NCBI GenBank assembly: GCA_949289845.1 | Contig: CASEPN010000002.1 | Span: forward strand, 1-64,000 | Direction: 5' to 3' | DNA from: an uncultured Bacillota bacterium | Lineage (GTDB): Bacteria; Bacillota_I; Bacilli_A; RFN20; CAG-826 | Length of the DNA: 64,000 nucleotides | Shown here: in pieces, positions 30,331-33,119 of the stretch | Layout: every line of letters begins with the position of its first letter | How positions within the stretch are numbered: the stretch's first letter is position 1 | Position numbers and translations under genes: made by a program | Notes under the pieces: generated by a model | Databases searched by the model: none | Told to the model about the DNA's origin: nothing | Seen by the model: the letters and a program-made list of their open reading frames with translations, nothing else

Positions 30331-30352
30331 CCCGTCCCCAAGGGACAAAGGA

Positions 30353-30380
30353 GGCCCCTCCATTTGGAGGGGCCTTTCTT
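30353..30380. terminator. Terminator of ppdK, shared with the macrodomain operon
   Basis: GGCCCCTCC-ATTT-GGAGGGGCC followed by TTTCTTCTT on the plus strand. The convergent minus-strand operon ends 5 bp beyond, so the same hairpin may stop both. Confidence 0.85.
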
Positions 30381-30384
30381 CTTC

Positions 30385-30567
30385 CTAGACCAGTTCCTTC
30401 AGGAGAAGCTCCTTCTCCCTTTGGTAGGCAGCTTCCCCGATGTCTCCCGAGCGACGGTACCTCTCGAGAAGGGCGGCGGCCTTGCCTTTGTTCCCAAGAA
30501 GGCGTTCCTTCTCGACCTCCTCAAGGGGCGAAGGACGGGCCTTCCTCGCGTTCTTCCAGAAGAACAT
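30385..30567 (-). CDS. Small SHOCT-like protein
   Basis: A 60-residue basic peptide. Residues about 30-58 (ALLERYRRSGDIGEAAYQREKELLLKEL) fit the SHOCT pattern, a short two-helix C-terminal oligomerisation module (L..Y...G.I....Y...K..LL). It starts 2 bp after the macrodomain stop, so it is cotranscribed; the Shine-Dalgarno is weak (AAAGG about 13 nt away). It could be a partner or membrane-recruitment piece of the locus, or a spurious frame. Confidence 0.55.
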   Translation of the reverse strand: MFFWKNARKARPSPLEEVEKERLLGNKGKAAALLERYRRSGDIGEAAYQREKELLLKELV

Positions 30568-30569
30568 CG

Positions 30570-31352
30570 CTAGATGCCAAGCCTTTCCTCATAAAGCGCG
30601 CGGTCCTCGTCCTTCTCGGTGACGAAGCAGACGATCGGGGCGTCCTCCCAGGCGACAACCTCCTCCAGGACGACGTCCACGGCGATGCCGCAGGCCTCTT
30701 TCCTTGGGAAACCCCTCTCTCCGGCAGATAGGCACGGGAAGGCGATGGAACGAAGCCCGGCCTTCCTTGCCAGGGACATCGCCTTCCGATAGGTCTTCCG
30801 CAGGGCGTTGAGGTCGATGTCGCGTACCCTCCCTCTGACGGAAGGACCAACGGCATGGATCACGTAAGGGGCGGCAAGGTGATACCCCTTGGTCATCCCG
30901 GCATAGCCAGGCTCGATGGGCTTGTCCTTGTCATAAAGGGCCTTGCAGGCGTTCCGGAGCTCGAGTCCCGCGGCGGAGTGGATCCTGCTGTCGAGAGAGC
31001 GATGGCCCGGGACGAAGCAACCCTGGAGCTCGACGCTCGCCTCGTTCACATAGGCGTCGGCGACAAGGCGCAGCATGTCCCCGTGGAAATGAGTGATCTT
31101 CGGGAGGGCTGAGGCGGGAAGGGATAGCACGTCAATCAAATCGGAAGCCCCCCTTTCTTCGTCAAGGAGGGCGCCTTCTAGGCGATAGAACTCTTGGGAA
31201 AGGGAGCCTGGGGGGCATAGCGCCATCAAGCCCCGGAGAAGGTTTCTCCTTTCTCCGCATCCTTTCCCGCATTGGCGGGCAAGAAAGGAATGCTCCGGGT
31301 GATCGGCCAAAAGGATTTCAATCATTCTCTCGATACGGGCGCCATCTTCCAT
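30570..31352 (-). CDS. Zinc-type macrodomain protein, ADP-ribose hydrolase family
   Basis: A 260-residue protein with the N-terminal helical extension typical of zinc macrodomains (RRNLLRGLMALCPPGSLSQEF, about 35-55) and a macrodomain from about 85. The family removes ADP-ribose from proteins. The zinc motif GCFxPxHxC reads GCFVPGHRS (111-119): Cys112 and His117 are kept but the third ligand is Ser119. The ADP-ribose loop VNAAN is VNEAS. PCLSAGERGFP is the phosphate loop. Start lies 3 bp after the antitoxin stop. Activity may be altered. Confidence 0.88.
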   Translation of the reverse strand: MEDGARIERMIEILLADHPEHSFLARQCGKGCGERRNLLRGLMALCPPGSLSQEFYRLEGALLDEERGASDLIDVLSLPASALPKITHFHGDMLRLVADAYVNEASVELQGCFVPGHRSLDSRIHSAAGLELRNACKALYDKDKPIEPGYAGMTKGYHLAAPYVIHAVGPSVRGRVRDIDLNALRKTYRKAMSLARKAGLRSIAFPCLSAGERGFPRKEACGIAVDVVLEEVVAWEDAPIVCFVTEKDEDRALYEERLGI

Positions 31353-31355
31353 AAA

Positions 31356-31625
31356 TCAAAGATATTCCAGGGCTTTTTTCAGAGTAAGGGAAGGTTTCTT
31401 TTCTTCACGGTCAGAAAGCTTCTCCGCCTTCTTTTTTCGCGGTACAGGCTTCTTCCCAACGGAAGTCCCGAGCTCGAGGGAGAATGGGAGCCGTCCCTCC
31501 CTGGCGGCGGCCTTAAGAAACTCAGTCACCGCAAACGTCATGGTTATCCCAAGCCTGGAGAACACCTTCTCGGCATCTCTTTTGACCCTGGGATCAACCC
31601 TAAGATTCAAGGTTGTCTTCGTCAT
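31356..31625 (-). CDS. RelB/DinJ-family antitoxin-like ribbon-helix-helix protein
   Basis: An 89-residue protein: MTKTTLNLRVDPRVKRDAE (RHH strand and helix 1), VFSRLGITMTFAVTEFLKAA (helix 2) and REGRLPFSLEL match RelB/DinJ antitoxins, which dimerise on palindromic operators and neutralise a RelE/YafQ RNase. No such toxin follows: the gene 3 bp downstream is the macrodomain protein. The C-terminal part is Lys-rich. The ATG at 31623-31625 has no Shine-Dalgarno, but TACACT lies exactly 6 nt before it, inside a perfect palindrome. Confidence 0.87.
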   Translation of the reverse strand: MTKTTLNLRVDPRVKRDAEKVFSRLGITMTFAVTEFLKAAAREGRLPFSLELGTSVGKKPVPRKKKAEKLSDREEKKPSLTLKKALEYL

Positions 31626-31634
31626 ATCCAAAGT

Positions 31635-31653
31635 GTAACGCTTTAGGCGTTAC
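31635..31653. promoter_or_regulatory. Operator palindrome 1 overlapping the antitoxin promoter
   Basis: GTAACGC-N5-GCGTTAC, a perfect 7-bp inverted repeat. On the minus strand its end supplies the -10 TACACT (31632-31637) of the antitoxin gene and TTGTTT lies 18 bp upstream as -35, so binding would block initiation. Confidence 0.8.
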
Positions 31654-31719
31654 ATAAACAATATTAAATTTAGAAAAACGTGGCACCGTGTATTTAATCG
31701 ACGCCATCTTGTTTTGTGT

Positions 31720-31738
31720 GTAACGCTTTGTGCGTTAC
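31720..31738. promoter_or_regulatory. Operator palindrome 2 at the glmU stop
   Basis: The same arms, GTAACGC-N5-GCGTTAC, with a different 5-base centre. It abuts the glmU stop codon. Centre-to-centre distance to palindrome 1 is 85 bp, close to eight helical turns. Confidence 0.8.
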
Positions 31739-31739
31739 A

Positions 31740-33119
31740 TCACTCTCTTTTGAGTAGTTTCTTAGCGGTTCCCGGCTTATTCGTCTGCTTGCTTCTCGCG
31801 AAAGCGGTGGCTCCTTCGGGCACGTCGTCAGTCACAACGCTTCCAGCCGCGACTAGGGCATCCTTCCCGATTGCGACAGGGGCAACAAGAACGCTGTCGC
31901 AACCGACGAAGGCGCCTTCGCCGATCTCCGTACGATGCTTCTTCGTTCCGTCGTAGTTCGCAGTGATTACCCCGCAGCCGATGTTGGCGTCCTTGCCGAT
32001 CGAAGCGTCGCCGATGTAGGAGAGGTGATGCGCCTTGGCCCCGTCGGCAACGGTCGCGTTCTTGAACTCAACGAAGTTGCCTAGCGCAGTCCCGCTCGCT
32101 ATCACAGTCCCGTTCCGGGCGTGGAAATATGGCCCGATGTGGTTGTGATCCCTGATTACGGTATCCGTCAGCCAGGAGGCGAGGACTTCGTTCTCAGAAC
32201 CGATGACGCTATCTTCGATATAGGTGTTCGGACCGATGAGGTTCCCTTCGCCAATCACGGTCTTGCCCATGATGTAGCACCCGGGACGGATGATCGTGTC
32301 CGCCCCTATGGTGACATCCGGACCGATAAAGGTCGTAGCGCTGTCTTCGATGGTGACCCCGCGGAGCATGTGCTCCCGGTTGATCCTGGCTTTCAGGTTC
32401 GCCTCGGCGATCGATAGCTGATGGCGGTCGTTCACGCCCATCGTCTCATCGATGTCAGCGACCTCGAAGGTCCCGACCTTCAGCCCCTTCTTCGCGAACA
32501 ACTCGATGACATCGGTCAGGTAGTATTCTCCGGCCGCGTTATTCGTTGTGATGCGATGCAGCGCTTCGAAAAGCTCCTTGTTGTCGAAGACATAGACGCC
32601 GGCGTTCACCTCGCGGATTTTCTCGGCCTCGTCATCGCAATCCTTCTGCTCGCGAATCTGGATGACGTTCCCGGCGGCGTCGCGGACGATCCTTCCATAG
32701 CCATGGGGCTCGTCCAGGACGGAAGTCATGATGGTCAGGAAGTTGCCGGCTTTCTCGTGGGCGTCGAAGAGGCCTTGGTAGAGCTCAGTCGTGATGAGGG
32801 GGGTGTCGCCGCAGCAGATGATGGTCTGCCCTTCCTTCCCTTCAAGAAGCGGGGCGACCTGCATGACGGCATGCCCCGCGCCCTTCTGCTCCTTTTGCCA
32901 CACAACCTCGCAGTCTTCTTTCACGATCGGCTCCGAAGTAGCGCCACCGAACCCGATGATCGCGATGAGCCGCTTGGCCCCGAGAGGCTTGAGGGCCTCG
33001 ATGATCCATTTGACCAGAGGTCTTCCCAGCACCGGGAAGGAAACCTTGCTGATGTCCTCGCGCCGGCTTTTCATCCGGCTTCCCTTGCCAGCGGCAAGGA
33101 TGATCGCATATCTATCCAT
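31740..33119 (-). CDS. glmU: Bifunctional GlcNAc-1-P uridyltransferase / GlcN-1-P acetyltransferase
   Basis: A 459-residue GlmU making UDP-GlcNAc for cell-wall synthesis. The N-terminal pyrophosphorylase has ILAAGKGSRMKSR and the C-terminal left-handed beta helix has hexapeptide repeats ending in SYIGDASIGKDANIGCGVITANYDG with the acetyltransferase residues. AAGGAG lies 4 to 5 nt before the ATG. It follows ispE by 8 bp as the end of the rpmH-to-glmU block. Confidence 0.98.
   Translation of the reverse strand: MDRYAIILAAGKGSRMKSRREDISKVSFPVLGRPLVKWIIEALKPLGAKRLIAIIGFGGATSEPIVKEDCEVVWQKEQKGAGHAVMQVAPLLEGKEGQTIICCGDTPLITTELYQGLFDAHEKAGNFLTIMTSVLDEPHGYGRIVRDAAGNVIQIREQKDCDDEAEKIREVNAGVYVFDNKELFEALHRITTNNAAGEYYLTDVIELFAKKGLKVGTFEVADIDETMGVNDRHQLSIAEANLKARINREHMLRGVTIEDSATTFIGPDVTIGADTIIRPGCYIMGKTVIGEGNLIGPNTYIEDSVIGSENEVLASWLTDTVIRDHNHIGPYFHARNGTVIASGTALGNFVEFKNATVADGAKAHHLSYIGDASIGKDANIGCGVITANYDGTKKHRTEIGEGAFVGCDSVLVAPVAIGKDALVAAGSVVTDDVPEGATAFARSKQTNKPGTAKKLLKRE

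Follow-up and report, generated by a model that had tools for sequence, protein, structure and literature searches.

Which role can be played by a macrodomain that is encoded where a type II toxin–antitoxin operon would carry its toxin? The question is raised by a three-gene locus in the window (here, the whole stretch of 64,000 nucleotides that was analysed, taken from contig CASEPN010000002.1 of an uncultured Bacillota bacterium), where a gene for a RelB/DinJ-type ribbon-helix-helix (RHH) protein is followed by a gene for a protein of the zinc-dependent macrodomain (Zn-Macro) fold and by a third gene, for a protein of 60 amino acids. The answer that we favor, with a probability of roughly 0.4, is that the locus is an autoregulated operon in which a domesticated RHH repressor would be combined with a macrodomain serving as a nucleotide-binding, ligand-sensing co-regulator, mostly without zinc hydrolysis. 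The pairing of RHH protein and macrodomain itself is real, conserved and so far undescribed; the literature that was searched contained no link of this kind between RelB/RHH proteins and macrodomains.

Organization of the Locus

All three genes are located on the minus strand, in the order RHH gene, macrodomain gene, small gene. The RHH gene (31356..31625) encodes 89 amino acids when read from its ATG, with an alternative TTG start at 31631; it is followed after 3 bp by the macrodomain gene (30570..31352; 260 amino acids) and this, after 2 bp, by the gene for the 60-amino-acid protein (30385..30567). Positions, strand and spacing of these tightly packed genes are the same as in the preliminary description of this DNA. 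The neighborhood consists of glmU, a co-directional upstream gene outside the module (31740..33119, minus strand), and, on the other side, of a terminator-like stem (30350..30377, plus strand) between the small gene and the convergent ppdK gene. The dN/dS ratios are ~0.13 for the RHH gene, ~0.16 for the macrodomain gene and ~0.17 for the small gene (range ~0.13–0.18), and all three are under purifying selection. The locus gave no riboswitch or RNA leader match in Rfam, and zero sites in a sigma-70 promoter scan.

The RHH Protein and Its Putative Operator

The RHH protein, whose N-terminal DNA-binding domain is of RelB/DinJ type, scores above the cut-offs of both TIGR02384 (RelB_DinJ; 58.3 bits, cut-off 45.65) and PF04221 (27.7 bits, cut-off 22.4), and the profile of its family matches the structures of DinJ and RelB, so that the identity proposed earlier was upheld. 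Its C-terminal part carries the motif SLxxAIxxL and is unlike the tails of the RelB-YafQ antitoxins of the genus; since the motif is also kept in RHH proteins that have no macrodomain partner, it is not readable as a macrodomain-binding tail. True RHH-YafQ and RHH-Fic pairs are present elsewhere in the genus, and one genome (G181) carries an RHH gene with a Fic/DOC gene (L083:1016-1656), a separate and likely toxin–antitoxin module.

Upstream of the RHH gene there are two 21-bp palindromes with perfect arms, TGTAACGC-N5-GCGTTACA, located 85 bp apart, which the preliminary description had not mentioned. The proximal one, TGTAACGC-TTTAG-GCGTTACA (31634..31654), lies ~8 nt upstream of the ATG, and the distal one, TGTAACGC-TTTGT-GCGTTACA (31719..31739), is placed directly after the glmU stop codon. 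When up to three mismatches are permitted, only these two are found in the window, where shuffling predicts 0.05, and no further copy exists across the whole 1.30-Mb genome. Within 23 upstream regions of RHH genes from the genus, GTAACG/CGTTAC half-sites occur 54 times, while 2.3 are expected; they recur before the RHH gene genus-wide, where the surrounding sequence diverges, and 15 of the 17 exact GTAACG-N7-CGTTAC palindromes detected in the genus are located at RHH genes of this clade. Conservation of the operator, which had been suggested as a check, is thus observed across the genus with two exceptions: in G096 a search for the usual GTAACG sites before the RHH gene found none, and in G208 none was seen when the short upstream stretch was read by eye. 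The TGTAA core of the palindromes is common to the relO hexads of Escherichia coli, [A/T]TGT[A/C]A (PMC2812701). Autoregulation of the operon through these putative sites is well supported by the sequence comparison: RHH dimers would bind the TGTAACG half-sites in both palindromes, which cover the presumed promoter of the operon and the region of its ribosome-binding site, and would thereby repress their own operon.

The Macrodomain Protein

The protein matches PF01661 with 98.8 bits, and its best solved relatives are MorMacro, SpyMacro and SauMacro (30–35% identity). An AlphaFold2 (AF2) model (pLDDT 94.8) superposes over its full length on MorMacro with a TM-score of 0.93, the N-terminal three-helix bundle included. 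In the characterized Zn-Macros, hydrolysis needs the Cx4HxC ligands and zinc, alongside the NAAN and Dx3H motifs (PMC11490716). In the window protein Cx4HxC reads C112-x4-H117-x-S119, i.e., the third zinc ligand is lost, as it is in the C-x4-H-x-S motifs of G083 and G181; NAAN is replaced by NEAS, and D99 and Dx3H (D121, H125) are kept. The earlier designation as a zinc-type macrodomain therefore holds for the fold and fails for the Cx4HxC motif, one ligand of which is missing (S119).

The same erosion is seen when macrodomains are compared according to their partners. In a tree, those linked to RHH genes fall on one side (support 78/62) and those linked to the sirtuin SirTM on the other (99/93), and G096 holds both paralogues. 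The zinc triad is intact in 9 of 17 RHH-linked vs. all 30 SirTM-linked proteins, both NAAN asparagines are present in 4/17 vs. 29/30, and the full catalytic set in 2/17 (G165 and G129) vs. 29/30; for these counts Fisher's test gives p < 1e-4, a value that overstates independence, as the 17 proteins are related. The RHH-linked proteins keep the adenine-site aspartate (D99) in 17/17, the loop-2 glycine in 15/17 and the histidine of Dx3H in 14/17. The fold is thus kept and the nucleotide pocket probably too, and the zinc chemistry is being lost, more than once. The preliminary description had considered an active ADP-ribose eraser, and this is not borne out, with zinc-ligand and NAAN residues eroded in most RHH-linked but not in SirTM-linked members. 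It is doubtful that the window protein is a hydrolase; judged from the full set in G165 and G129 and the zinc triad in 9/17, some members of the clade may still be hydrolases.

Conservation of the Pair Within the Genus

The sample comprised 37 genomes of the genus, many of them fragmented, in which the genes of relatives are mechanically defined open reading frames with profile matches. Macrodomain genes of Zn-Macro type were present in 20 of these 37 genomes, and each of the 18 that belong to the clade described here is paired with an RHH gene. The RHH gene lies directly upstream of the macrodomain gene in 13 cases (G000, G083, G181, G104, G111, G147, G153, G165, G096, G201, G202, G203, G208) and is separated from it by a DUF362 gene in four (G024, G189, G209 and G141, in the last of which the macrodomain gene is split into two frames); in the remaining one, G129, the RHH gene and a DUF362-macrodomain pair are placed at the ends of two contigs, which fits the RHH-DUF362-macrodomain order. 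The preliminary description had named two signs of an accidental pairing, a RelE/YafQ gene between the two genes and a macrodomain that usually occurs without the RHH gene. Both were looked for and neither was found: no genus relative has a RelE/YafQ gene in between, and none of the 37 genomes has a macrodomain gene of this clade without an RHH gene. The core of the earlier proposal, an RHH autoregulator whose partner in the place of the toxin is a macrodomain, is accordingly supported. Macrodomains of the other clade are found beside or near SirTM, namely the second one of G096 and those of G159 and G197; the second macrodomain of G165, on a short contig, belongs to the SirTM-linked clade by the tree. 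In G159 the N-terminal part of the SirTM-linked Zn-Macro is interrupted by a stop (L098). The DUF362 gene found in four to five genomes encodes a 4Fe-4S protein (L043:8000-9115, L076, L102); at such loci, where the macrodomain gene is readable, the zinc ligands are fully lost in G024, G189 and G209, and intact in G129.

The usual site of the pair is between glmU and ppdK, but it follows ispE in G147, G153, G201 and G202 and is located elsewhere in G203, and these different neighbors imply that the pair is kept when its flanks change. The pairing persists through deep divergence (~35% identity), and the distances of RHH and macrodomain proteins, with glmU allowed for, give a partial r of 0.62 (0/2000 permutations), which can be taken as a mild indication. 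The neighbors of the pair in G203 include an SbcC-like gene and another RHH gene, which differs from that of the pair (L187:3200-4884). Several members also encode, between glmU and the RHH gene, a protein of ~84–91 amino acids with repeated YxxG-like units (MDWTCVYG...) and no Pfam family (L076:1799-2053, L078:1829-2104, L079:1994-2260, L012:2608-2880).

Nine genomes (G047, G171, G207, G185, G204, G196, G198, G199, G206) have the RHH gene without the macrodomain gene, mostly between a shortened glmU and ppdK, and three (G117, G123, G135) have neither, so that glmU abuts ppdK there. The orphan RHH proteins nest inside the macrodomain-linked ones, in a tree based on a small number of columns, which makes loss of the macrodomain the simpler reading; their existence also implies that the regulator is of some value without it. 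In the orphan-RHH genomes GlmU has ~334 amino acids, compared with 459 in the window, and has lost much of its C-terminal acetyltransferase part (L061, L063, L068, L069, L173, L183-L185); the macrodomain is absent from the same genomes that have the shortened GlmU.

The Small Third Protein

The 60-amino-acid protein is the product of a real conserved gene, third in order in about nine genomes of the genus, and has no family in either Pfam or NCBIfam. It had been called SHOCT-like by eye, a label that has to be dropped, as the Pfam SHOCT profile matched none of nine members at E ≤ 10. Its AF2 model consists of three helices (pLDDT 79) and gave no significant Foldseek match against the PDB, and a PDB search with the family profile returned only chance matches to helices. 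In G129 the third gene encodes an MFS transporter with the small-protein domain at its C-terminus (E 2.6e-7; L037:1211-2599), and this fusion points to a possible connection with the membrane. The protein may be an accessory part of the module, perhaps for interaction or membrane tethering.

Distribution Outside the Genus and Search for a Partner Enzyme

Zn-Macros occur in many genomes of the order and class, of which 279 and 395, respectively, were searched. At most of the 35 loci that were read SirTM is adjacent, and at none of them is an RHH gene present; within this sample the partnership with an RHH protein seems to have been invented in the genus. Other genera show a recurrent set of Zn-Macro, then DUF1848 (radical-SAM-like), then SirTM (L052:7087-9580, L053:7203-9696). 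Viral contigs contained no match to the RHH-linked macrodomain, and the matches on plasmids and phages were canonical Zn-Macros or YmdB-like proteins only, with less than 40% identity; a mobile-element or viral origin was rejected on these results, and the locus is a mostly vertically inherited chromosomal site and not a mobile island. None of the three proteins had a PADLOC match at E ≤ 1, and membership in a defense system was rejected too; the defense role considered in the preliminary description thus finds no support, for a locus mostly inherited vertically on the chromosome. The same text had suggested a transferase encoded elsewhere, and a search of the own genome for such writers, covering Sir2, SirTM, DarT and KptA, was negative throughout; DarT was found in 0 of the 37 genus genomes. 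For SirTM the query was a SirTM protein, since PF02146, by itself a poor test, left out the SirTM of G096.

What Is the Macrodomain For?

One may ask whether the RHH protein does anything other than repress, the macrodomain protein being an inducible ADP-ribosyl hydrolase that undoes the modification set by the cell's own, a phage's or a competitor's transferase. Fold and homology are those of Zn-Macros, which are proven hydrolases (PMC11490716, PMC4518038), and the intact triads together with the full set in G165 and G129 agree with such an enzyme. However, the triad is broken in 8/17 RHH-linked vs. 0/30 SirTM-linked proteins, the NAAN asparagines are changed in 13/17 vs. 1/30, the window protein misses its third zinc ligand, and its genome lacks SirTM, Sir2, DarT and KptA; moreover, an independent enzyme should sometimes occur without the RHH gene, of which there are zero cases. 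We regard this explanation as unlikely. A true toxin–antitoxin pair, with a harmful free macrodomain protein that is neutralized by the RHH protein, would account for the gene order and autoregulation typical of type II modules and for a macrodomain that never occurs without the RHH gene, which itself occurs alone; still, it is quite improbable, as a catalytic toxin would be inactivated by the varied residue losses in the active site, inheritance at glmU is mostly vertical and chromosomal (with no viral contigs and only plasmid/phage matches below 40% identity), and the RHH protein has no C-terminal tail of the kind found in the RelB-YafQ antitoxins of the genus. To our knowledge, a toxin of the macrodomain fold is not known.

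There is also little chance that the locus is a decaying remnant, i.e., an ordinary relB gene that lost its toxin, with a Zn-Macro gene that landed behind it and a pair that is slowly disappearing. What speaks against it is selection on all three genes (dN/dS ~0.13–0.18), a confidently predicted intact fold, a conserved operator and a pairing that survived divergence to ~35% identity and changes of genomic place, even if nine genomes with an orphan RHH gene, the split macrodomain gene of G141 and the erosion of the active site look like decay. The remnant with a replaced toxin that had been envisaged earlier may hold as an account of origin, but the module is conserved and under selection.

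The autoregulated operon with a macrodomain as co-regulator is the explanation that we retain. The macrodomain would descend from the SirTM-linked Zn-Macro family, uncoupled from SirTM, and would occupy the place of RelE in relBE. As its residues suggest, it most likely keeps the binding of ADP-ribose-type nucleotides, and zinc-dependent hydrolysis would be little or none in most members, the window protein included. It would work with the RHH protein and not as a free-standing enzyme, because the dependence is one-way: the macrodomain never occurs without the RHH gene, whereas nine genomes have the RHH gene alone. Repression would then change when the macrodomain binds its ligand, by analogy with the degenerate Nudix domain of NrtR. 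RelE is a co-repressor of RelB (PMC2812701) and NrtR a catalytically dead ADP-ribose enzyme that serves as an ADP-ribose-responsive repressor (PMC6800001), thus providing a precedent for each step of the mechanism. Tentatively, and with odds rather against it, the locus may be described as a toxin–antitoxin-like module in which a catalytically decayed zinc macrodomain has taken over from the toxin and, by sensing ADP-ribose or some related NAD metabolite, controls the RHH repressor. If true, an eraser would here have given rise to a two-protein switch that responds to ADP-ribose. The locus also shows that a repressor of antitoxin type can live on beside a partner that is no known toxin. One genus offers here a natural series of active sites, from intact to fully lost, so that the change from an eraser to a reader or regulator becomes directly testable.

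Comparison With Known Systems

In published cases a Zn-Macro is accompanied by SirTM, either alone or within an extended operon, or is part of a fusion (PMC11490716, PMC4518038). A clade that has an RHH partner and is losing its zinc site, absent from the literature searched, adds a further context. The SirTM-linked proteins SpyMacro, SauMacro and MorMacro are alike in fold, N-terminal three-helix bundle and zinc loop (TM ~0.9), whereas the proteins described here form a separate clade whose partner is an RHH protein instead of SirTM, GcvH-L or LplA2, and the window protein has C-x4-H-x-S as zinc motif and a changed NAAN. With relBE and dinJ-yafQ the locus shares the RHH N-terminus, a palindromic operator with a TGTAA core in front and a partner directly downstream, but this partner is a macrodomain and not an RNase toxin, and the RHH protein lacks the C-terminal tail that RelB-YafQ antitoxins carry in the genus. 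DarTG also has a macrodomain in a two-gene arrangement of toxin–antitoxin type; there, however, the macrodomain of DarG is the antitoxin beside DarT, which is absent from the genus. The likeness to NrtR concerns the proposed logic only, i.e., a dead ADP-ribose enzyme put to new use as the sensor of a DNA-binding autorepressor (PMC6800001), since the folds are unrelated and NrtR combines Nudix and HTH domains in one chain, where the locus described here would divide sensor and repressor between two proteins.
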